A DNA stretch of 64,000 nucleotides from Aureispira sp. CCB-E (GTDB taxonomy: Bacteria > Bacteroidota > Bacteroidia > Chitinophagales > Saprospiraceae), in assembly GCF_031326345.1 (NCBI RefSeq), contig NZ_CP133671.1:1302001-1366000 (forward strand), given 5' to 3'. Of the stretch, positions 8,080-59,055 are shown piece by piece (the stretch's first letter is position 1; every line of letters starts with the position of its first letter). The position numbers were made by a program, and so were the translations under genes. The notes beneath the pieces were generated by a model. The model was not told the origin of the DNA and did not search any database. It saw nothing but the letters and a program-made list of their open reading frames with translations.

Positions 8080-8742
8080 ATGAAAATTATACTTTTCCGA
8101 CTAACTAAGTACTTGCTCATTTTCTTGGTAGTTTGCCTCGTTTTTGTTCTCAACTATATTTTCTTTGCTTGGTTTTTATCTAGATTGACCACAACACCCA
8201 AGGACTATAAATGTGATAAACCATACACGGTTTATGCTACTAGCAATGGCGTTCACATGGATTTAATCTTCCACAAAAGTTTACTAGACGAGGCTTTTTT
8301 AGTTCAGTTACAACCAATAGAAGGCGATTATATTGCCATAGGGTGGGGTGACAAAGGATTTTATTTACATACACCAAGTTGGGCTGAGTTAAAGATTAGT
8401 ACAGCAATTGCAGCAGGTTTTTTGCCTAGTAAAACGCTGATGCATTTGACCCACTACAAGTACCTCAATTCAAAATGGAAATCTATCGAACTGTGTGACG
8501 AGCAATTAGCAGCCATGAAAAAATTTGTTTATGAATCGTTTAAATACGACAAAAAAGGAACGATCCAGATTTTAGAAGGAACGGGCTATCGAGACAATGA
8601 CTTTTTTTACGAAGCCAAAGGAAACTATACTTGTCTATATACCTGCAATATTTGGGTCAACCAAGCCTTAAAAAAGGCAGCTGTAAAGACAGCAATTTGG
8701 TCGCCTTTTGATCGAGGAATTTTACGCCACTTATCTAAATAA
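8080..8742 (+). CDS. DUF2459 (TIGR02117-type) membrane-anchored protein
   Basis: 220 residues. One N-terminal membrane segment (about 8-33). The outside domain has the family hallmarks: YATSNGVHMDL near residue 57, GWGDKGFYLHTPSW near residue 88, and a C-terminal YTCLYTCNIWVNQAL. DUF2459 proteins were first noticed near urease genes and have no proven function; the conserved His and Cys/Asn residues suggest a hydrolase-like fold (inference). It stands alone, and a family A repeat begins 3 bases after its stop codon. Confidence 0.8.
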   Translation: MKIILFRLTKYLLIFLVVCLVFVLNYIFFAWFLSRLTTTPKDYKCDKPYTVYATSNGVHMDLIFHKSLLDEAFLVQLQPIEGDYIAIGWGDKGFYLHTPSWAELKISTAIAAGFLPSKTLMHLTHYKYLNSKWKSIELCDEQLAAMKKFVYESFKYDKKGTIQILEGTGYRDNDFFYEAKGNYTCLYTCNIWVNQALKKAAVKTAIWSPFDRGILRHLSK

Positions 8743-8745
8743 CAA

Positions 8746-8988
8746 TAGTTTGTTGAAACCACGGAGTAGCAGCGCAGCTAAACTTTATTAGTTTACTTCG
8801 TGAGTGCTGCGCAGTTGATAATTAATGAGTTATGATTTTTATCGCATTTTGTATTAAAGCTTTGATTATCAAACTAATATAAGTGTGGTTTTTTATCTTT
8901 TTGGTAAAAAAGTAAACAACTAAGCGATAGCGATCTCACGACCGCAGGGAGCTACCACGAAGTAGCACCGCAGGTAATCAACGAACTA
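8746..8988. repeat. family A dispersed repeat, copy A1 (with nested inserts)
   Basis: Ends TAGTTTGTTGA (8746-8756) and TCAACGAACTA (8978-8988) form imperfect terminal inverted repeats. The interior aligns with the 163-bp copy at 58767-58929, except for two additions. One is exactly 22 bp at 8795-8816 (begins ACTTCGTGAGTGCTGC), which breaks the left arm of the internal palindrome TTAGTTTGATAATCA. The other is about 57 bp near 8920-8977 (contains CTCACGACCGCAGGGAGCT and ACCACGAAGTAGCACCG). Module ACCACGGAGTAGCAGCG lies at 8758-8779. No open frame; MITE-like in form. Confidence 0.8.
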
Positions 8989-8995
8989 CTATAAA

Positions 8996-9175
8996 TAAGT
9001 AAGAGGTCAGAAAAAATAAGAACAAAAAATGGGATTATTTTTGCGAATCCAAGAAGAAAAAGGAAGGCTTAGCGAGCTAAGACAAGTTTTTCTGATGAAG
9101 TGTAGCGCAAAAAGAAGGCTGTTTTAGCTACGCTGCTACTGCGTGGTACTTGTTATTTTTTTGAACGATTACTTA
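8996..9175 (+). repeat. family B dispersed repeat, copy B1 (carries a 22-bp insert)
   Basis: 180 bp bounded by TAAGTAA and TTACTTA. It matches the copies at 39674-39832 and 56908-57068 (both reversed) along the whole length, e.g. GAGGTCAGAAAAAATA and GGCTTAGCGAGCTAA. The extra length is a 22-bp insert at 9126-9147 (AGCTACGCTGCTACTGCG...), absent from the other two copies, where GCTGTTTT or GCTCTTTT runs directly into ACTTGTTATTT. Confidence 0.85.
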
Positions 9176-23366: not shown

Positions 23367-23530
23367 AATATTTTCTTTTGGGTACTAATTTAAACTTTTT
23401 ATGGTAGCAATTTTAAAATTTTTGTTTGGTACACAGACTTAAAAAAAATAAAAAATCATGCAGCGTTTTTACAAAGTCTGCATCTAAGAGATAAATAATG
23501 AAGATGTTTATTGATAACTACTATTCTAGC

Positions 23531-23694
23531 ATTACTCCGTTGAAAAATCGTATTAGTTTGATTATCAGTAAGATGTATCCTTATTAGCCTTTATGCTAAA
23601 AGACTGATAATCAAACTAATGCAAGATGCTTTTTTACGTTTTTACTTCGTGAGCCTACGGGTTCGTAGGGAAACTAAAAAATCAACGGAGTATT
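23531..23694. repeat. family A dispersed repeat, copy A2 (ATTACTCCGTTGA ends)
   Basis: 164 bp with perfect or near-perfect terminal inverted repeats ATTACTCCGTTGA (23531-23543) and TCAACGGAGTATT (23682-23694). An internal palindrome TTAGTTTGATTATCAG / CTGATAATCAAACTAA matches the core of copies A1 and A5. A module-like GC-richer stretch, ACTTCGTGAGCCTACGGG, lies near 23644. No coding capacity. Confidence 0.8.
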
Positions 23695-23731
23695 AATTCT
23701 AGATAACCTTATTCTTAAATAATCTCAATTT

Positions 23732-25844: not shown

Positions 25845-27201
25845 TAAACTATTTAGGGATAATTTAAAGGAAGGTAAAGCAGAAACGCCTTCTTTTGTTT
25901 GGGACAATATTGAAAAGGAAATTGAAGAGAAGAAGCGTAAAAAAGGGTTGTTTTTCTTCTTTCAGATGCTAAGTATATTGCTTCTCCTGCTAAGTTTAGG
26001 ATTTATTTACTGGGTAATAGATGATTTGCCGCAGCAGGCATCTTTTGAGGAAATTGTCTCTGAACCAAACCTTAATTCTAAAGAATCAAACGCAATACCA
26101 AAATCAACAGGTTTTGATGAATTGCCAACAACTATTTATTCAAAGAAAAATCAAAACAAGATAGACAAACAGTATGTCAATAAAAAGGAAGCCTATATCT
26201 CTGAAAATTTACCCACTGATATTGCTACGGTAGAAGATCTATCTAAAGGATTGTTGTCACTAGAAGGAAAGGAAGGTAGAGGAATAGAGCGTCTATCTGA
26301 GGGATTGTTATTATCAGAAGGGAAGGAAGATAAAGGAGTAGAAGATCTATCTAAAGGATTGTTGTTACCAGAAGAGAAGGAAGAGAATGCGGAAGGAGCA
26401 GAGAGGATTGTTAAGGAATTATTGTTAGAAGATGAGTGCATTGACAGTATGTTTATAGAAAATAAGGACTTGGCAATGTTGTTAACAGGAGAGGTAGTAA
26501 AAGAAAATGATTCAAGAAAAAATAAACCTAGAAAAACGCCATTTTTCATAGAAACTAAAGTTGGTTATTCCAGCTATAAAATGAGTTTATGGAATTCCTC
26601 TTTTGTCTTTGGAGATCTTTCGAATCGAAAATTCAAATCCTCAGGACTGAATGCAAATATAAGTTTTGGTTATCAAATTAATTCTTTATTAAATCCAATA
26701 GTAGGTTTTAATTATAATAGAAAACAAGCTGAATTCAATTATAGTGCTTTATATGATGACGAAGGCTATTTTACTTATAATATTCAAGGAAATAAAATGC
26801 CTTTAGATGAAATCAATGACTCTGACCTTTTATGCAATCAATTTATTTTATACGATATAAAGGCGGTCTTTAATATTACATCATTTTCTCTAACTGTGGG
26901 GAATCGATTTAATTTATTACAACTAAATAAAATAGGAATTGATTTGGATGTGAGTTATAGCCTTGAAATAAGTTCTAACATAGATGTACAATCTATTGAT
27001 AAGATCGATGTTTCAGAACATCTTAGAGAACGTTTCAATTCTAAAATAGCTATGGGGTTAAATATTAACTATCAATTGAGCCAACAGTTGAGGCTTTTTG
27101 TTCAAGCAGAATATATTTTTAAGCCCTATAATTCAAATAATTTCCACCGTAGTAATGCACATGAATTAATTAATTCTCTTGGATTGAGATTTAATTTTTG
27201 A
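25831..27201 (+). CDS. membrane protein: putative anti-sigma-like N-terminus, repeats, outer-membrane barrel-like C-terminus
   Basis: 456 residues, overlapping the sigma gene by 14 bases. Residues 1-38 are cytoplasmic and charged (DKLFRDNLKEGKAETPSFVWDNIEKEIEEKKRKK); one membrane helix spans 39-64. Residues about 134-200 carry three to four degenerate 18-20 residue repeats (E.LSKGLL..EGKE...). The C-terminal 220 residues look like an outer-membrane beta barrel (IETKVGYSSYKMSLW ... QLRLFVQAEYIFKP, ending LRFNF). Bacteroidota often pair ECF sigma genes with such single-helix plus barrel proteins. Control of the sigma factor is inferred from the overlap; no zinc-binding anti-sigma motif is seen. 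Confidence 0.8.
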   Translation: MTEFDKLFRDNLKEGKAETPSFVWDNIEKEIEEKKRKKGLFFFFQMLSILLLLLSLGFIYWVIDDLPQQASFEEIVSEPNLNSKESNAIPKSTGFDELPTTIYSKKNQNKIDKQYVNKKEAYISENLPTDIATVEDLSKGLLSLEGKEGRGIERLSEGLLLSEGKEDKGVEDLSKGLLLPEEKEENAEGAERIVKELLLEDECIDSMFIENKDLAMLLTGEVVKENDSRKNKPRKTPFFIETKVGYSSYKMSLWNSSFVFGDLSNRKFKSSGLNANISFGYQINSLLNPIVGFNYNRKQAEFNYSALYDDEGYFTYNIQGNKMPLDEINDSDLLCNQFILYDIKAVFNITSFSLTVGNRFNLLQLNKIGIDLDVSYSLEISSNIDVQSIDKIDVSEHLRERFNSKIAMGLNINYQLSQQLRLFVQAEYIFKPYNSNNFHRSNAHELINSLGLRFNF

Positions 27202-39673: not shown

Positions 39674-39832
39674 TAAGTAATCGTTCAAAAAAATAACAAG
39701 TAAAAGAGCCTTCTTTTTGCGCTACGCTTCATCAGAAAAACTTGTTTTAGCTCGCTAAGCCTTTCTTTTTCTTCTTTGATTAGCAAACAATAATCCCATT
39801 TTTTGTTCGTATTTTTTCTGACCTCTTACTTA
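39674..39832 (-). repeat. family B dispersed repeat, copy B2
   Basis: 159 bp, reversed relative to copy B1. Ends TAAGTAA and TTACTTA. It lacks the 22-bp insert of B1. Its outer edge TAA (39830-39832 on the minus strand) is also the stop codon of the adjoining glycosyltransferase gene. Confidence 0.85.
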
Positions 39833-40768
39833 TTTTCTAATAAACAAAAGGATATATTCTTTCAAAAGTAAGGTTCTTAACTCTTGGGCAAAATTCTTTA
39901 ATGGAGGCACAATACTCAATAGCTTTTTATATTGTTGATACAAGCGATTTGGTTGTCCTTTTTTTATACCAAAACGATAGGAGTGCAATCGACAAAAATG
40001 AATCAAAAGATTTTTCACTTTCTCTTCTCCTTGAGTGGTTATAAAAGGATAATATGATTTGAATACTTCGTCCAAAAGCCCTAGTTGGTTATAATCCCAA
40101 TCTTTTGCATTTAAAATTTTAACTTGAGTTTTAAATTTAGGAACATAAATAACCGTATATTTTTCAATCCGATTGGTCACAAAATAAATAAACAAATAGA
40201 TATTTCGGTTCTCTTTGGTGGCTAAATACTCTTCTAATAAATTGTTGCGTTTGAGTAATAAGCCAGATAGTTGATGTCCCAAATGTGAATATTTGAGCAT
40301 CGACGCATAGCCTGCATCTCCAACAACTTCTTCAAAATCAGTAGGTCTAGGGTGACCAATTACCTTGAGGTTATTGTCAATTTGTACAATTCCAGTAATG
40401 ATACATCCTAGGTTCTCAACACGATTAATTTTCTCAACGCAATAATTAAGGTAGCCTTTGTCTAAATAATCGTCGTCTCCCAAGAACATCACAAAATCAC
40501 TACTGGCTTTGCTCAGAACATGAACGGCATTTTTTTCTAATCCAATATTTTCTTCGGTACGATAATAATCTACTACAAAGTTAGCATTTTTTTGAGTCAA
40601 AAATTCTTTGGTTGCTGCTTGAGTATTATCAGGAGAACAATTATCTGAGATGATAACTTTGACTTTATCCAACAATTGATGCTGGATCAGTTCTTCTTGA
40701 ATAAGTGTCAAGTTATAAATCAAATCTTCCGAACGATTATAAGTCGGAATAAGAATATCAATTAGCAT
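39830..40768 (-). CDS. family 2 glycosyltransferase
   Basis: 312 residues. GT-A motifs: DILIPTYNRSEDLIYNL, ISDNCSPDNT and MFLGDDDYLDKGY. The C-terminal half is variable (KNLLIHFCRLHSYRFG). The stop codon TAA is the first three bases of family B repeat copy B2, so the insertion may have shortened or re-terminated the protein (ends ...LLFIRK). Confidence 0.88.
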   Translation of the reverse strand: MLIDILIPTYNRSEDLIYNLTLIQEELIQHQLLDKVKVIISDNCSPDNTQAATKEFLTQKNANFVVDYYRTEENIGLEKNAVHVLSKASSDFVMFLGDDDYLDKGYLNYCVEKINRVENLGCIITGIVQIDNNLKVIGHPRPTDFEEVVGDAGYASMLKYSHLGHQLSGLLLKRNNLLEEYLATKENRNIYLFIYFVTNRIEKYTVIYVPKFKTQVKILNAKDWDYNQLGLLDEVFKSYYPFITTQGEEKVKNLLIHFCRLHSYRFGIKKGQPNRLYQQYKKLLSIVPPLKNFAQELRTLLLKEYILLFIRK

Positions 40769-44686: not shown

Positions 44687-47600
44687 ATGAAGACGGCTAC
44701 TTGGTTCTATTTAGTATTTTTTCTTTTCTGTTCCTGCCTAATTCAGGCACAACCCATTGTTAATTTAGGACCAGACACAACGGTTTGTGGCAATAGCTTG
44801 ATGTTAGATGCTGGAAATACAGGTGCTACATTTTTGTGGAACACAGGAGCAACCACGCAAAATTTAATGGCTACTGCCTCTGGAACGTATTGGGTAGATG
44901 TAACAGATGTGTCGGGAACTACTCGTGATAGTATTGAGGTGATTTTGGTTGCACCACCTAATTTTATAACGCAGCCTAATGATACAACTTTGTGTGGTGG
45001 TCTAATTAACTTAGCAGCAAGTGCAGATGCAGGTAGTATTAGCTGGATTGGAAGTCTAGGAAGTATTATTAGTCTAGGGGATAATCTTATATATGAACTC
45101 CTAGATACAACGACACTTTATTACCAAGCGGTATATATAGATACAGTAGGTCGAACCTTTGCTCAAGGGGGAAGTAGTTATCCTAGTGTTAGTCGAGCAA
45201 TTATTTTTAATGTCAATGAATCAATTCGTCTAAATAGTGTAATGATAGACATTAATAATGGACCTTTCACAGCAGATATAGAGTTAGAGGATAATACAGG
45301 GACTGTAATAAGCAGCAAAAGTATTAGTTACAATACAGCAGGAAGGTATGAGGTGTTTTTAGGTTTTGATATTCCAATCGGTACAAATTACAGATTGTAT
45401 ATGCGAAATATAAGTGGAGGAGGGGTACATTCATTATTTCCATATAATAATTGGGCATCTGATCATAATTATGGCTTTATAGAATTGACCAACTCTACAG
45501 ATCCAACGGTCTATCCTATTTTTTGGGAATGGAAAGTTACTAAGCTGGACGGTTGTAACTCTTTGGTAGATTCTGTTATTTTAAATATGCTACCGACTCC
45601 AATCGTAAATCTTGGAGAGGATACGACTTTATGTGGTGGAAATATCACTATAGATGCAACTAATATAGGTACAGGGTTTACTTATTTATGGAATACAGGT
45701 AATATGACTTCTTCTCTTACGACTGACTCTACGGGAGTGTATGCTGTTACAATATCTTCAGGAGGAAGTTGTCTAGTATCAGATAGTATTGGTATTGTTA
45801 TAAATACAAAACCTATTGTGCAAAGTATAGCAGATACGAGTATTTGTAAAGGTGTTCGCACTATAGCTACTACTACGAATGTTGGTCTAGTGACTTGGAC
45901 AGATTTATTAGGTAGAATAGTTGGGATAGGAGATACATTGTCTTATGAAGTAATGGATACAACGACACTTTATTACCAAGCGGTATATATAGATACAATA
46001 GGTCGAACCTTTGCTCAAGGGGGAAGTAGTTATCCTAGTGTTAGTCGAGCAATTATTTTTAATGTCAATGAATTAATTCGTCTAAATAGTGTAATGATAG
46101 ACATTAATAATGGACCTTTCACAGCAGATATAGAGTTAGAGGATAATACAGGGACTGTAATAAGCAGCAAAAGTATTAGTTATAATACAGCAGGAAGGTA
46201 TGAGGTGTTTTTAGGTTTTGATATTCCAATCGGTACAAATTACAGATTGTATATGCGAAATATAAGTGGAGGAGGGGTATATTCATTATTTCCATATAAT
46301 AATTGGGCATCTGATCATAATTATGGCTTTATAGAATTGACCAACTCTACAGATCCAACGGTCTATCCTATTTTTTGGGAATGGAAAGTTACTAAACTGG
46401 ACGGTTGTAATTCTAATATAGATACTTTCACTCTAAATGCTTTACCTACTCCTGTAGTCAATTTAGGATCTGATACAACATTGTGTGAAGACACATTGAC
46501 GCTAGATGCTACTAATGTTGGAGGAGGTTATACATATCAATGGAATACGTCAGCTATTACACCAAATATTCAGGCATCTACTACTGGAATTTATAAAGTT
46601 ACAGTTAGTGTAGGTGGTAATTGTTCTGTAGAAGATAGTATATCACTGCTTGTGAACTCTCAACCAACGATTTTGCAAGGACCAACTAACATGATGTCTT
46701 TATGTAGAAAAATATATAGTTTGGTTGCTAACTCAAATGTAGGAGAGATTCGTTGGATAGATAAATTAGGAAATACAATCGCTTTGGAAGATACATTAAC
46801 TTATGAATTACTAGATACGACGACACTTTATTACCAAGCGGTATATGTAGATACAATAGGTCGAACCTTTGCTCAAGGGGGGAGTAGTTATCCTAGTGTT
46901 AGTCGAGCAATTATTTTTAATGTCAATGAATCAATTCGCCTGAATAGTGTAATGATAGACATTAATAATGGACCTTTCACAGCAGATATAGAGTTAGAGG
47001 ATAATACAGGGACTGTAATAAGCAGCAAAAGTATTAGTTACAATACAGCAGGAAGGTATGAAGTATTTTTAGATTTTGATATTCCAATTGGTACAAATTA
47101 CAGATTGTATATGCGAAATATAAGTGGAGGGGGGGTATATTCATTATTTCCATATAATAATTGGGCATCTGATCATAATTATGGCTTTATAGAATTGACC
47201 AATTCCACAGATCCAACGGTCTATCCTATTTTTTGGGAATGGAAAATTACTAAACTGGACGGTTGTAACTCTTTGGTAGATTCTGTTGTTTTAAATATGT
47301 TACCGACTCCAACTATAGAATTAGGTCCAGATACAATTTTATGTGGTGGTGGTATTACATTAGACGCGACCAATGCAGGTGCAGGATACCAATATATTTG
47401 GAATACAGCAGATACAACACCTACAATCCAAGCTATAACGTCCAACTTGTATCAAGTAACAGTTAGTTTTGGAGGAAGTTGCTCAATTGTAGATAGTTTG
47501 AATGTCGTAATAAATGAACGCCCAACCTTCTTGCAATCTCCAAATGACACAACATTATGTGGCGGATTATATACATTAAATACAACAACTAATGTAGGTG

Positions 47601-50600
47601 TAACAAAATGGACTGCAGTAACAGGGGAAACATTAGGGTATGGAAATACTTTAAGCTATAATTTACAAGATACTACAACTTTGTTTTATCAAGCTAGTTA
47701 CTTTGATACAATAGGGCGAACTTTTACACAGGGGGGAAGTAGTTACCCTACTGTTAGTGGGCGAGGGATTATTTTTGATGTATTAGAACCTATTGACTTG
47801 AATAGTGTTCATATAAATATTGACAATGGACCATTTTCAGCAACAATAGAATTGGAAGATGCTACAGGAACACTCATTGCCGCTAAAAATATTTCTTATT
47901 TGTCAGCAGGTGTTTATGAGGTGTTTTTAGATTTTAATATACCAGTAGGAGTAGATTATACATTGTATTTAAGAAATGTCTCAGGTGGTGGAGTGTTAAC
48001 TTTATTTCCATATAGTGATTGGGCAAATGATCATGATTATGGTTTTGTTAAATTAAAAAATGCTACAGACCCAACCGTCTATCCTGCTTTTTGGGAGTGG
48101 AAAGTAACCTTGATGAATGAAGTTTGTGCCTCGGAAGTTGATTCTGTATTACTAAATATGTTGCCTACCCCATTGATTAATCTACAAGAAGATACAGTGG
48201 TTTGTAATGATTCTATTGTATTGGATGTCTTTTTTCCAAATGCTACTTATAATTGGAGTTTGGGAGGGATAAATACAAGCTCTATTTTAGTTACACAGGA
48301 AGGAATATATAGTGTAACTTCCACCATAGGCACCTGTTCTAATAAGGATACTATTAATGTATTTCTTGCACCAGAACCAACTGTTAACCTTATTTCCTCT
48401 GATACATCAACTTGTGTTGGTGAAATACCTAGATTGGCAACAGGAGCAGATTTCGTAAAATGGTATACAGAACCTGTAGGAGGAAATTATTTAGGAAATG
48501 GAAGCTTATTTATGTATGATGCACAAGTTTCAGATACAATATGGTGTACAGGACAAAACTTTGCTAACAAAGTATACACAGAGGGATTGGTTGATACATT
48601 TGTGTCGAACCAAACAGCATACTTCTTTCCGAATCAAATTCGAGGGTTGGTGTTTGATGTTCAAGAAGACCTTTTACTTAAAGAGGTGACAATGTACATT
48701 AATCAAACTTCCTTTATTGGAACTATTGAGTTGTGGGATGCCAATAATGTAGTTCTTTATACTCAACCTATTGTATTGACCGATTTAGGCAAGAATATAA
48801 TTTCACTTGGTTTTACAATTCCAGTAGGAGTCGATTACAAATTGATGTTAACAGATTATAACACGATTCCTATTTTATCAGAATTTCCATACACAGGCTT
48901 TCCTATCAATGGAGATTTTTTAACCATAAAATCAGGTATTCCATTCTCTTCTGTCTATCAATATTTTTACAACTGGAATGTTCAAGGACTTAGTTGCCCA
49001 ACAGATCGTATACCAAGTGTTGTAGAAGTATTGCCAACACCGAATATTGATTTTCCAACAGATAGTATTATTTGTGGTGATACGTTAGTTTTAGATGCAA
49101 GTTCTTTAGGATTACAATCGTATCAATGGAGTACAGGAGAAACAACCTCCTCGATTATTTTGGATAGCACCACTACAATTACTTTAGAAGGCTCAATTGG
49201 CATTTGTACTGATGAAGATAGTATGAATGTATTTATTGTCGAGCCACCGAGTTTGATTATTCCTCCGAATGATACCACTGTTTGTCAAGGGAATATGACC
49301 TTCTATGCTACTGGTAATGCAGCCTATTATGCTTGGTACAACTCAGAAACAAGTGCTACTCCATTTGCTTTGGGCGATTCTGTAGTTGTTAATCTGCAAG
49401 ACACGACTACTTTATGGGTAGAAGGGATTGGATTTATTCCAAAATCAGAACCTTTAGGAGAACAATACAACCCTAATTCGAACCTTAATGTATGGGGAAC
49501 ACCTCAATTAAGTGTTTATCCTACTAGAGGAATGACCTTTACAGTTAATTCCCCTATATTATTGAATTCTGTTGCTATTTATGTTGATACGGTAACTACA
49601 GCAACATTGACAATTTACAAAACAGGATTCCCATATTATACTCAACAACTCAGCTTGACGAATGCAGGAGAGAATGTGGTTCAAATAGATACCTTGCTAG
49701 AAAATGGAAGTTATTCTATAGAATTAAGCAACAAATCGGCAGGAAGGATTTTATTCCTTTCTCCTTACACCAATTTAGCGCAACTCAATGCAAACGCTTC
49801 GGAAATTACCTTCACTGGTTCTGTTCCCTTGGCTTCTCAATATGTATATTTCTTTAATTGGAAAATTTCGACGCCATCTTGTGCAACGAATCGTTTACCG
49901 ATTAATATAACTGTTCCTCCATCTCCTTCCATTACACTGACAGCAGATACGGCAACATGTACATTGGGAAGTATTACTTTAGATCCTATACAGAACAATA
50001 ACCCAGCCTATACTTATGCTTGGAGTGGAGGAAGTTCTAGTGATACGTTAGCCGTTAATTCTTCAGGATATTATCGGGTAACGGTAACCAATGATGGTGT
50101 CTGTTCGTCGGTAAAAGATATTTACGTACAGTTTTTATCAACTCCGAATGCGTCAGTAGTTAGTGATTTAGATATATGTGCACCACAAGATATAGCACTT
50201 TCAGTACCTACTTCAGATGGTATTGTAGTTTGGTATGACTCTAGTGATTTGAACACTGTTTCTTACCTAACAGCACCTTATAATGTTTATGTAGGAGATA
50301 CAACCGATTTTTGGATAGATGTAGCTCCAAAGGCAACTACTCGAATAGGAAAACAAGCCTATGATAACCCTAACGAGTCAAGTGCGTATTTGAATTTTAT
50401 TATTGCCAATCGCTTTGATGTTCATGAATATGCAGTTCTAGATTCTGTTGCGATTTATGTAGAAACAGCGCCAGCTGTTGCTAATGTTGTCCTAATGGAC
50501 TCCTCTGGAAATACAATTAATACGGTTAGTTATACTGTTACAAAAGCTAAAGAAAAAGTATTTCTTCCTTTGAATTTTTTAATTCCACCAGGGGAGAATT

Positions 50601-56907: not shown

Positions 56908-57068
56908 TAAGTAATCGTTCAAAAAAAATAACAAGTAAAACAGCCTTCTTTTTGCGCTACTCTTTATCAGAAAAACTTGCCTTAGCTCGCTAAGCCTTCC
57001 TTTTTCTTCTTGGATTAGCAAAAAAATAATCCCATTTTTTGCTATTATTTTTTCTGACCACCTACTTA
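56908..57068 (-). repeat. family B dispersed repeat, copy B3
   Basis: 161 bp, reversed relative to B1, with TAAGTA-type ends. It has no 22-bp insert. It lies 61 bases upstream of the tadA start and may include its promoter. Open frames through it (56881-57072) are not conserved between copies, so it is non-coding. Confidence 0.85.
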
Positions 57069-57422: not shown

Positions 57423-58769
57423 ATGCGTAGGCAAATTCTTTTTCTATTTTTTTTATTGGCAACGGTTCAGGTAAATGCTCAAGACAATGACAAATGGTCA
57501 TTGGAAAAATGTATCAACTATGCCATTCAAAATAGTTTGCAAGTTCAACAAGCAACTTTAAATCAAAGTCAAGCACAATTGACAAAAAAACAAGCAGTTT
57601 GGGCACAAGCTCCCAATATTAGTGCAGGATATCGAAACGGTGTTAATATAGGAAATACGGTCAACCCGACCAATAATGAGTTGATTACAATACCCAACTT
57701 CAACTCGGGCTTATCCCTTAATATAAATGGAGTAATTTTCCAAGGACTTCAAATTAGAAATACCATCAAACAAAGTAAGGTAGACTTGGAAGCTGCAGGA
57801 AAAGATGTAGAACAAGCCAAAAATGATGTGGCCTTATCGGTTGCTCAATCTTATTTGGCAATTCTGCTAGCGGAAGAAAGCAAAGGTGTTTTTGAAGAGC
57901 AAGCCAAAGTAACCAAAGCCCAATATGAGCAAACCATCAAATTAATAGAAGGTGGTGTTTTGGCCGAAAATAGCAAATATGATTTGGAGGCACAGATGGC
58001 AAGAGACGAAGAAAATATTGTTATTGCCCAGAATAATATAGATTTGGCGTATGTCAATTTGAAAGTATTGATGAACGTAGATGTTGCAAAAAATATTGCG
58101 ATAGAAATAGTTGGTGATTTGGATGTGGATGAAACCTTGGAAGAAGCTACCTTGGAAGAGGTTTACGAAGATGCCATTAACAGTCAACCTAATATTTTGG
58201 CTTCTAAATTGAGAGAAAAAAGTGCTCTGCTTAATGTGAGTATTGCCAAAGGCGCTTTGTGGCCAACCGTATCTTACTATGCAGGTTTTGGCAGCAATTA
58301 CTCTACAGCATACAAAAATCCAGTAACAAAAGAGAGTATACCTTATTTTGTTCAATTGGGAATAACGGCCTCAGCGAATGCAGGAATCAATATCTCTATA
58401 CCTATTTTTCAAGGACTAAGAACTAGAATCGGCATTCAAAGAGCAGAATTAGGAATTAAAATTGCAGAATTGGCAACCACACAATTAGAAGCAACTCTAA
58501 AATCTAATATAGAACGTGCGCTAACAGATGTTAGGGCAGCAAAAAAACGATTGGCTGTATCAAGAAAGAGTGTTACAGCTACCCGTTTGTCAGTAGAAAA
58601 TACGCGCAAACGATATGAGTTGGGAGTTGTGAACTCTTTTGAGTTGACAAGTGTTCAAAATACATTGATTGCTTCAGAATCTAGTGTGCTGCAAGCCAAA
58701 TATGATTACCTCTTTAAGTTGAAGATTTTAGATTACTATAGAGGTCGAGCAATTACAATTAAACAATAG
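57423..58769 (+). CDS. TolC-family outer-membrane efflux protein
   Basis: 448 residues from the ATG at 57423; the frame is open 9 codons upstream from TTG. Signal peptide MRRQILFLFFLLATVQVNAQ. Two repeats of the coiled-coil/beta-barrel fold (WSLEKCINYAIQNSLQVQQA near the start; SIAKGALWPTVSYYAGF in the second half). It should form the outer-membrane channel of a tripartite export system. The stop codon TAG is the first three bases of family A repeat A5, so the tail (GRAITIKQ) may have been altered by the insertion. The periplasmic adaptor gene follows after the repeat. Confidence 0.92.
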   Translation: MRRQILFLFFLLATVQVNAQDNDKWSLEKCINYAIQNSLQVQQATLNQSQAQLTKKQAVWAQAPNISAGYRNGVNIGNTVNPTNNELITIPNFNSGLSLNINGVIFQGLQIRNTIKQSKVDLEAAGKDVEQAKNDVALSVAQSYLAILLAEESKGVFEEQAKVTKAQYEQTIKLIEGGVLAENSKYDLEAQMARDEENIVIAQNNIDLAYVNLKVLMNVDVAKNIAIEIVGDLDVDETLEEATLEEVYEDAINSQPNILASKLREKSALLNVSIAKGALWPTVSYYAGFGSNYSTAYKNPVTKESIPYFVQLGITASANAGINISIPIFQGLRTRIGIQRAELGIKIAELATTQLEATLKSNIERALTDVRAAKKRLAVSRKSVTATRLSVENTRKRYELGVVNSFELTSVQNTLIASESSVLQAKYDYLFKLKILDYYRGRAITIKQ

Positions 58770-58929
58770 TTCGTTGAAACCACGCAGTAGCAGCGAAGCT
58801 AAACTTTATTAGTTTGATAATCAATAAGTTGTGTATTTGTTGTGTTTTGTGTTATAATTTTGATTATCAAACTAATATAAATGTGATTTTTTATCTTTTT
58901 TGGTGAAAAAGTAAAAAATCAACGAACTA
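58767..58929. repeat. family A dispersed repeat, copy A5 (best-preserved)
   Basis: 163 bp. Terminal inverted repeats TAGTTCGTTGA (58767-58777) and TCAACGAACTA (58919-58929), perfect over 11 bases. An internal inverted repeat TTAGTTTGATAATCA / TGATTATCAAACTAA is also perfect. The module ACCACGCAGTAGCAGCG lies at 58779-58800. No open frame. Confidence 0.88.
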
Positions 58930-59055
58930 CTAAATTAAATAAACCACATTTAAAATAATAGTTTGCCAATTCTAAGGTGAGTTATTATAAGGGACACCTT
59001 TTATTATTACTTCGTGGGAAAACCGCATTAGCTTGCTTTGTAAAATTGCTTAGTT

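Follow-up and report, generated by a model that had tools for sequence, protein, structure and literature searches.

The window analysed here is a stretch of 64,000 nucleotides from Aureispira sp. CCB-E (1302001-1366000 of contig NZ_CP133671.1). It carries two short MITE-like elements lying side by side, A1 of family A and B1 of family B (Table 1). A1 has the TIR CAATAGTTTGTTGA..TCAACGAACTACTA, modules at its sites b, c, f and f', and the TSD TAAATAA, which can be read directly at 8736-8742 and 8992-8998. Together with this duplication (8736-8998), A1 abuts the left end of B1 and apparently inserted at the margin of that element.

Each of the two elements contains a 22-bp insert that is missing from other copies of its family. 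The B1 insert (AGCTACGCTGCTACTGCGTGGT, 9126-9147) is absent from B2 and B3, and the A1 insert (ACTTCGTGAGTGCTGCGCAGTT, 8795-8816) is absent from A5. The breakpoints are exact, a shift ambiguity of 1-2 bases in A5 aside. The A1 insert interrupts one arm of a 17-base inverted repeat, TATTAGTTTGATAATCA/TGATTATCAAACTAATA, which is whole in A5. Both inserts, and the splitting of the palindrome arm, had been reported in a preliminary description of this DNA and are borne out. That description took them for two independent filled/empty pairs. Both pairs are real, but the inserts represent two types within a single set of modules and occupy two of its many sites. The inserts are real units of change, not a reading error.

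Table 1. Elements and modules in the window
Feature	Position	Strand	Remarks
Family A element A1, MITE-like	8743..8991	+	aligned to the 146-bp empty core
Type I 22-bp module, A1 site b (GTTGAA^AAACTTT)	8758..8779	+	0 mismatches to consensus; core column 15
Type II 22-bp module, A1 site c (A insert of the preliminary description)	8795..8816	-	reverse complement AACTGCGCAGCACTCACGAAGT
Type III module (net 36 bp), A1 site f	8917..8953	+	CAACTAAGCGATAGCGATCTCACGACCGCAGGGAGCT; 58-bp insert = 36 + 22; placement ambiguous by one base
Type I module, X=C variant, A1 site f'	8954..8975	+	directly 3' of the type III module
Family B element B1, MITE-like	8996..9175	+	ends TAAGTAAG..GATTACTTA; TA target
Type I 22-bp module, B1 site 2 (B insert of the preliminary description)	9126..9147	-	common to CCB-QB1
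A' subfamily element, TIR CATTACTCCGTTGA	23530..23695	+	site b empty; L096:31 and L080:18697 filled with type I there
Family B copy B2	39674..39835	-	empty at sites 1 and 2; length equal in CCB-QB1
Family B copy B3	56908..57068	-	empty at sites 1 and 2; length equal in CCB-QB1
Family A copy A5	58764..58932	+	type I at site b, site c empty; TSD AATTAAA

Host elements, modules and insertion sites

The host elements A and B have the TIRs, the small size and the target duplication of MITEs. The family A core is 146 bp long, and some copies (L094:8659-8804, L090:10212-10357) consist of this core with no module; the TSD of the family is about 6 bp. Family B elements are about 165 bp long and have a TA target, as we read it from the sister strain CCB-QB1, in which the L080 element as a whole is missing from its site. 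The 47 TIR-bounded A elements that were chosen because they have an exact duplication of at least 5 bp span 67-282 bp, and a duplication of 5-7 bp is also found in 10 of the 14 unselected A end pairs under 400 bp. A 67-bp element with the TSD ATCCTC (L093:2415-2481) is little more than a pair of type I-like units in inverted orientation. Transposases moving the A and B elements were not found in the analysis. Nor was an autonomous partner with A ends, up to 6 kb long and with an exact duplication, found in the 864-kb sample, where the stricter end pattern of one scan missed most right ends. Whole elements differ between the strains: an A element (L094:8659-8804, a 152-bp difference) and a B element (L080:19018-19209, a 184-bp difference) are present in CCB-E only, the orthologous sites in CCB-QB1 being empty, and a B-like element near 10413-10571 of L320 (a 160-bp difference) is likewise present in CCB-E and not in CCB-QB1. 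Thus, both MITE families have moved recently.

The modules are GC-rich and their host elements are AT-rich. Type I is 22 bp long, with the consensus ACCACGNAGTAGCAXCGNAGX'T. Type II, represented by the A1 insert AACTGCGCAGCACTCACGAAGT, has lengths of 20, 22 or 26 bp, and type III is 34-36 bp long. At up to three mismatches, type I occurs at 453 places in the 7.39 Mb of CCB-E (225 forward and 228 reverse). The same pattern read backwards occurs at 1 + 0 places, so the abundance of type I is not due to chance. With up to four mismatches, the 864-kb sample contains 127 type I hits versus one for the reversed control; type II has 45 hits in this sample. Tandem type I units are present in the genome G003.

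Type I has a regular internal pattern. A scan of the 864-kb sample in which pairing was not required found 112 pairs of CGNAG units exactly 11 bp apart. The outer bases flanking the first unit are complementary in 110 of the 112 and those flanking the second in 108, the copies being related and not independent. The base between G and A within CGNAG is free. In the context set, 215 of 226 type I copies have a complementary X and X' (G/C 183, C/G 20, A/T 12), a count biased to pairing because an unpaired X was charged as a mismatch; the count of 112 pairs is free of this bias. XCGNAGX' is the pattern that would be expected of GNA-loop mini-hairpins, the hairpin itself being hypothetical. The paired XCGNAGX' corresponds to the d(GCGNAGC) mini-hairpin motif, which is of unusual stability. 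Single-strand DNA folding of six module strands gave no signal (z from -1.34 to 0.45), with an energy model that may be devoid of GNA-loop terms. An Rfam search of the window gave no match at the gathering threshold.

The sizes of the inserts are discrete. When 45 A alignments to the empty core are considered (one L086 element being entered twice), inserts of 18 bp or more are mostly of 22 (46 times), 36 (16 times) and 34 bp (10 times), with further peaks at 48 (5 times), 58 (5 times) and 44 bp (3 times). The 17 inserts of other sizes measure 21, 24, 46, 59, 68, 70 and 73 bp (once each) and 23, 26, 35, 60 and 120 bp (twice each); several of the odd sizes belong to diverged or badly aligned copies. 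The remaining inserts, those below 18 bp, are 1-9 bp long. Sums of module lengths occur among the inserts (44, 58, 60 and 70 bp), and four of the five 48-bp inserts are 22 + 26. A continuous spread of insert lengths, which would have spoken against discrete modules, was looked for in these alignments, and the claim stands. The expectation that lengths change in steps of 22 bp was right about the discreteness but not about the step, as the lengths are 20, 22, 26, 34 and 36 bp and their sums.

The module sites of family A are named a to g, where a/g and c/d are the same point in opposite arms of inverted repeats. In family B, three of 20 copies (L080, L093 and L094) have a module at site 1. Site 2 is filled in 14 of the 20 and empty in four, and two are unscorable. 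The preliminary description allowed that the empty copies might be deletions with different breakpoints. The four copies empty at site 2 break at one identical point. The empty state of B2 may nevertheless be a loss: B2 (39674) clusters with filled copies in the B tree, which is of low resolution and in which L061, L062 and L067 were labelled empty though filled.

Type I mostly lies directly 5' of AA. Its ends are sharp at 22 bp across about 58 flanking contexts from four genomes (CCB-E, G003 and two Aureispira MAGs), the count being approximate because the clustering was loose. The first base after the module is A in 57 of the 58 contexts and the second in 49, and the left flank is A-leaning with no fixed base. 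As an example of the looseness, one cluster joined copies from G003 and the MAGs to B site 2; on checking, none of seven rows with those flanks was B site 2, five being AAAA^AATCAACG sites and two belonging to another site. The net gain is 22 bp, with AA as the right flank, and therefore type I has no target duplication. The combination of inverted ends and target duplication that marks a MITE was not found in the 22-bp unit itself. Type I fills the A' site AAAA^AATCAACG in the sister species (L116 of G006, and five copies from G003 and the two MAGs), but the site is empty in the seven listed CCB-E A' elements that retain CTAAAAAATCAACGGAG.

Variation between strains and distribution among genomes

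The sister strain CCB-QB1 matches the 521-bp region containing A1 and B1 at 99%. Over 64 locus pairs, 1772 substitutions were counted in 353,254 aligned bp, a divergence of about 0.5%; overlapping stretches are counted repeatedly in this length, which comprises 347,202 unique columns. The sample is not random, since the CCB-E stretches were chosen around A and B copies, and the CCB-QB1 stretches mostly through an exact module match. The list of indels of at least 8 bp has 40 entries. Most frequent among them are those of 22 bp (11 times), followed by 12 bp (6 times), 34 bp (4 times) and 26, 20, 10 and 8 bp (twice each). Indels of 21, 32, 36, 44, 48, 54, 74, 135, 152, 160 and 184 bp occur once; those of 152, 160 and 184 bp are whole elements. 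The two 20-bp indels are one event in overlapping stretches, and one of the 26-bp indels is the loss of a 36-bp module split by BLAST. Four of the six 12-bp indels are read as parts of exchanges between e and f modules. Judging from their flanks, the module-sized indels (22, 34, 26, 20, 21, 36, 44 and 48 bp) all lie in A or A' elements. Modules are gained and lost in both directions between the strains.

The module content differs in 13 of 23 unique orthologous A pairs, pairs with a core identity under 115/146 having been dropped. An earlier filter on flanks had retained 27 pairs from 63 CCB-E copies; some pairs, that of A1 among them, were dropped. A5 comes in addition to the 23 pairs. In CCB-E it has type I at site b and an empty site c, and in CCB-QB1 type II at site c and an empty site b, together with two core substitutions. 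The comparison of sister strains that the preliminary description had proposed as a check thus gave exact presence and absence at shared loci, and the site that is empty in A5 of CCB-E is filled in its orthologue. The module states of A1, B1, B2 and B3 do not differ between the strains. The alignment of the window to CCB-QB1 covers 60,909 bp with 437 substitutions, 45130-48139 being unaligned, and A5 is its sole module change. In family B, the 13 unique elements with an alignable core (14 rows, one element appearing twice) show no gain or loss of at least 18 bp between the strains. Two further B elements are whole-element differences, and in one B element (L298/L060) a deletion of 10 bp impinges on the module.

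Two other repeats of the window may be recorded here. Three 54-bp repeats lie at 26230-26383, and the 54-bp unit at 26322 is present in CCB-E and not in CCB-QB1. At 45024-48061 there are four direct repeats, each about 855 bp long and 68-99% similar to one another, and the alignment to CCB-QB1 breaks from 45129 to 48140.

Type I is abundant in four of 40 genomes, namely CCB-E (453), G001 (204), G003 (103) and G006 (144). It is at background (0-3) in the other 36, including the congeners G002, G004, G005 and G007. Among the other seven genomes of the genus, the A and B host elements are distributed in the same way. A scan of species genomes with the type I pattern found at least 120 stretches, most of them titled Aureispira and at least 15 titled otherwise. 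The non-Aureispira titles among the matches listed include Lewinella, Flavobacteriales, Crocinitomicaceae, a Chryseobacterium gleum MAG (twice), a Sulfurovum MAG and others. Exact type I matches occur in such stretches (L168, L183, L195, L196, L205, L216, L218 and L225 among them). Nine of the at least 15 were inspected and each has one unit, with two CGNAG 11 bp apart; the TAA that follows the unit is no evidence, as the scan pattern itself required it. By rough arithmetic, about 0.1 chance matches of the 21-base pattern would be expected in the collection, and the observed number exceeds this. Related units may exist more widely, or some of these contigs may be mixed bins. L203 (Saprospiraceae MAG-43) bears the flank of B site 2 itself and may be a mixed bin.

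Proposed insertion of modules and recombination between copies

The observations above are best accounted for, with moderate confidence, by two processes: a rare true insertion at N^AA, and the frequent gain or loss of the inserted module by recombination between copies. First, on rare occasions, a module would be truly inserted into a new site directly 5' of AA, which lengthens the site by 22 bp and duplicates no target. The AA side is constant and the left side is free, which suggests that AA/TT fixes one end. This end might be set through pairing with AA/TT or its recognition, for instance in a reaction that is primed or acts on single strands, or through template switching. The host elements would then spread in the genome as MITEs with the modules on board. 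Finally, frequent short ectopic recombination between A copies, by gene conversion or template switching, would reshuffle the modules and result in exact gains and losses of 22 bp.

An insertion step is needed for the first entry of a module into B or A', because copying from a homologous copy cannot explain it. In the sister species, 11 of 12 B copies can be aligned and all 11 are without modules at both sites; the search used an empty copy as the query, so filled copies could be missed.

The role of recombination is suggested by the A cores. Between the strains they differ by 123 substitutions in 4124 positions (2.98%), versus 12 in 2119 for the B cores; in these counts an A element (L064/L331) and a B element (L076/L332) are each entered twice, and the A element L069 is a poor one. 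Other DNA differs by 1603 in 340,959 (0.47%). The A cores, and not the B cores, thus diverge six-fold faster than their flanks. In 83 of 91 A core differences both alleles are found in at least two other copies, where 41% would be expected for random changes and 63% for transitions; mutation at hot columns would also yield shared alleles. In our reading of the sites, all four combinations of filled and empty states occur at a/c, a/g, a/b, b/c and c/f36. Because the module states mix and the cores diverge fast with shared alleles, recombination between A copies is probably a usual route of change. For the same reasons, the free mixing of module states and a core divergence of 2.98% versus 0.47% elsewhere, a filled/empty pair is not always an insertion event of its own. 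The proposal that very short modules are precisely inserted into repeats holds in that discrete units with exact ends are gained and lost there, but not in that each pair reflects one insertion.

The surroundings of the strain differences point in two directions. About one substitution would be expected within 200 bp of a module-sized event, and 12 of the 22 unique events have 3-11. The other 10 have 0-2 substitutions and also fit direct insertion or excision. At L271/L092 two modules have changed with one substitution, and at L213/L072 there are four events with two substitutions. A fully matching donor was found within a sample of 62 unique CCB-E and 54 CCB-QB1 A copies for 7 of 15 A pairs, against 9.1 expected by column shuffling. 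The A pairs whose modules differ and those whose modules agree are diverged in the core to a similar degree. That conversion would act in A yet not in B is a further point against the recombination account. The strain data fit recombination between A copies for a good part, and both processes may act.

Enzymes that might carry out the first insertions were sought in CCB-E among Y1, Y2 and reverse transcriptase (RT) families, and no mover explaining these insertions was found. The Y1 transposase (PF01797) has no match in CCB-E, and the positive control was matched in 5 of 14 named genomes; RAYT/Y1 was rejected as the mover on the zero matches. Y2 (PF04986) is represented in CCB-E by one copy with two stops and has no match in seven other genomes of the genus, in a search whose control matched in 0 of 14 genomes and whose sensitivity is unproven. 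As the CCB-E copy is broken and the module-bearing G001, G003 and G006 have no match, a Y2 enzyme (IS91/Helitron-like HUH) was rejected as the mover. RT matches number one in CCB-E, one in G002 and two in G003, with none in the other five genomes. RT was rejected because the module-rich G001 and G006 (assemblies 92 and 88% complete) have no match. None of the three has been shown to be needed. The preliminary description had spoken of a process of unknown kind. This stands as far as no mover explaining the first insertions was found in CCB-E, but a usual route of gain and loss would be recombination between copies.

A dedicated enzyme might nevertheless recognise the modules, perhaps as single-stranded DNA hairpins, and insert and excise them exactly at N^AA, the strain differences then being fresh events. 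The sharp ends in about 58 contexts, the one-sided AA and the 10 events with few neighbouring substitutions are in line with such an enzyme, as is the spacing of the complementary CGNAG pairs, although these pairs belong to related copies. It appears rather unlikely, given the lack of Y1 matches and the single broken Y2 copy in CCB-E, the missing Y2 matches in G001, G003 and G006 and RT matches in G001 and G006, the folding energies of the six strands, and family B, where the 13 elements show no change of 18 bp or more, although one has the 10-bp deletion mentioned above. That the machinery would belong to no family tested here and insert or remove 22-bp units at N^AA, with the paired XCGNAGX' 11 bp apart as its code, is similarly considered unlikely. 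If this were true, the modules would rank among the smallest true mobile units that any free-living bacterium has, and would be active at 0.5% strain divergence.

Template switching during replication, at microhomologies of 3-4 bases and with no dedicated enzyme, could also carry modules to new places; the ends would then seem sharp because the microhomology lies in neighbouring modules and AA/TT runs. By eye, B site 1 and A site f' share the X=C variant and the flanks GCT^..^AA, and B site 2 shares AAGT^..^AAA with the 44-bp arrangement of site c, matches that may be due to chance. The modules at c/d and at a/g are opposite in orientation in opposite arms, as copying from arm to arm predicts. 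This process would, however, be expected to carry donor flank into some insert ends, whereas the contexts have chained whole modules and no donor flank, and it is judged improbable. Plain deletion, slippage or an alignment artefact in old repeats, with a coincidental likeness of the A and B inserts, is hardly credible and in our view refuted by family membership and discrete sizes: the grouping of B2 with filled copies in the poorly resolved tree would agree with it, but the B insert belongs to a family found at 453 places, the A insert is one of 45 type II hits, breakpoints recur across copies, and whole modules are both gained and lost between the strains.

Relation to known small repeats

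A literature search of limited extent, with subscription papers mostly outside it, found no published account of Aureispira repeats. Cyanobacteria reportedly contain small dispersed repeats (SDRs), said to have been described by Elhai and colleagues in 2008, of about 20-30 bp, in many copies and located inside other repeats. To our knowledge, they are mobile in effect and have no known enzyme. The Aureispira 22-bp unit is similarly dispersed in high copy (453 places, versus one for the control), with exact filled and empty sites inside other repeats. It differs in belonging to another phylum, in its MITE-like hosts, in the one-sided AA rule and in the reshuffling between a pair of strains.

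The GC clusters of yeast mitochondria (GC42) are short GC-rich palindromic units of 42 nt with a stem-loop and a putative AG target-site duplication (PMC4478555). They are described as undergoing rapid changes of presence and absence, merger, shuffling and recombination at their flanks, with the mechanism left open (Wu and Hao 2015, PMC4478555). The Aureispira modules are likewise GC-rich, change in presence and absence between strains, and shuffle. They differ in being bacterial and not organellar, and type I has neither a target duplication nor a folding signal. The statement that no known transposon unit is this small is not supported as it stands, since both the SDRs and the 42-nt GC clusters are precedents for small units. 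By analogy, the behaviour of the modules appears closest to that of these two systems.

REP and REPIN sequences, which are moved by RAYT, are described as repeats of 20-40 bp, some in inverted pairs, with a terminal GTAG (PMC3116915, PMC3733652). The AGTAGC of the module recalls the GTAG tag, and the inverted pair at L093:2415-2481 resembles a REPIN. The GTAG of the module is, however, internal (positions 9-12 of the 22-bp unit), CCB-E has no Y1 match, the modules have no stable fold, and the inverted-pair element has a 6-bp TSD. Identity with REP/REPIN was rejected on the non-terminal GTAG and the missing Y1 match. The BOX elements of pneumococci are MITE-like and are built from optional internal modules. 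MITE-like elements with optional modules are common to BOX and to the Aureispira families, which differ in their host. The modules are filed as a variant of the small-dispersed-repeat kind.

The way in which units of 20-40 bp, too small for ordinary transposons, spread and change is a question shared by SDRs, REPs and GC clusters. In Aureispira, 13 of 23 A elements, at loci chosen non-randomly, differ in their modules at 0.5% divergence, so that the process may be quick enough to observe under laboratory conditions. Insertion, excision and recombination could be told apart by direct tests that build on the one-sided AA, the discreteness of insert sizes and the difference between changing A and quiet B elements.
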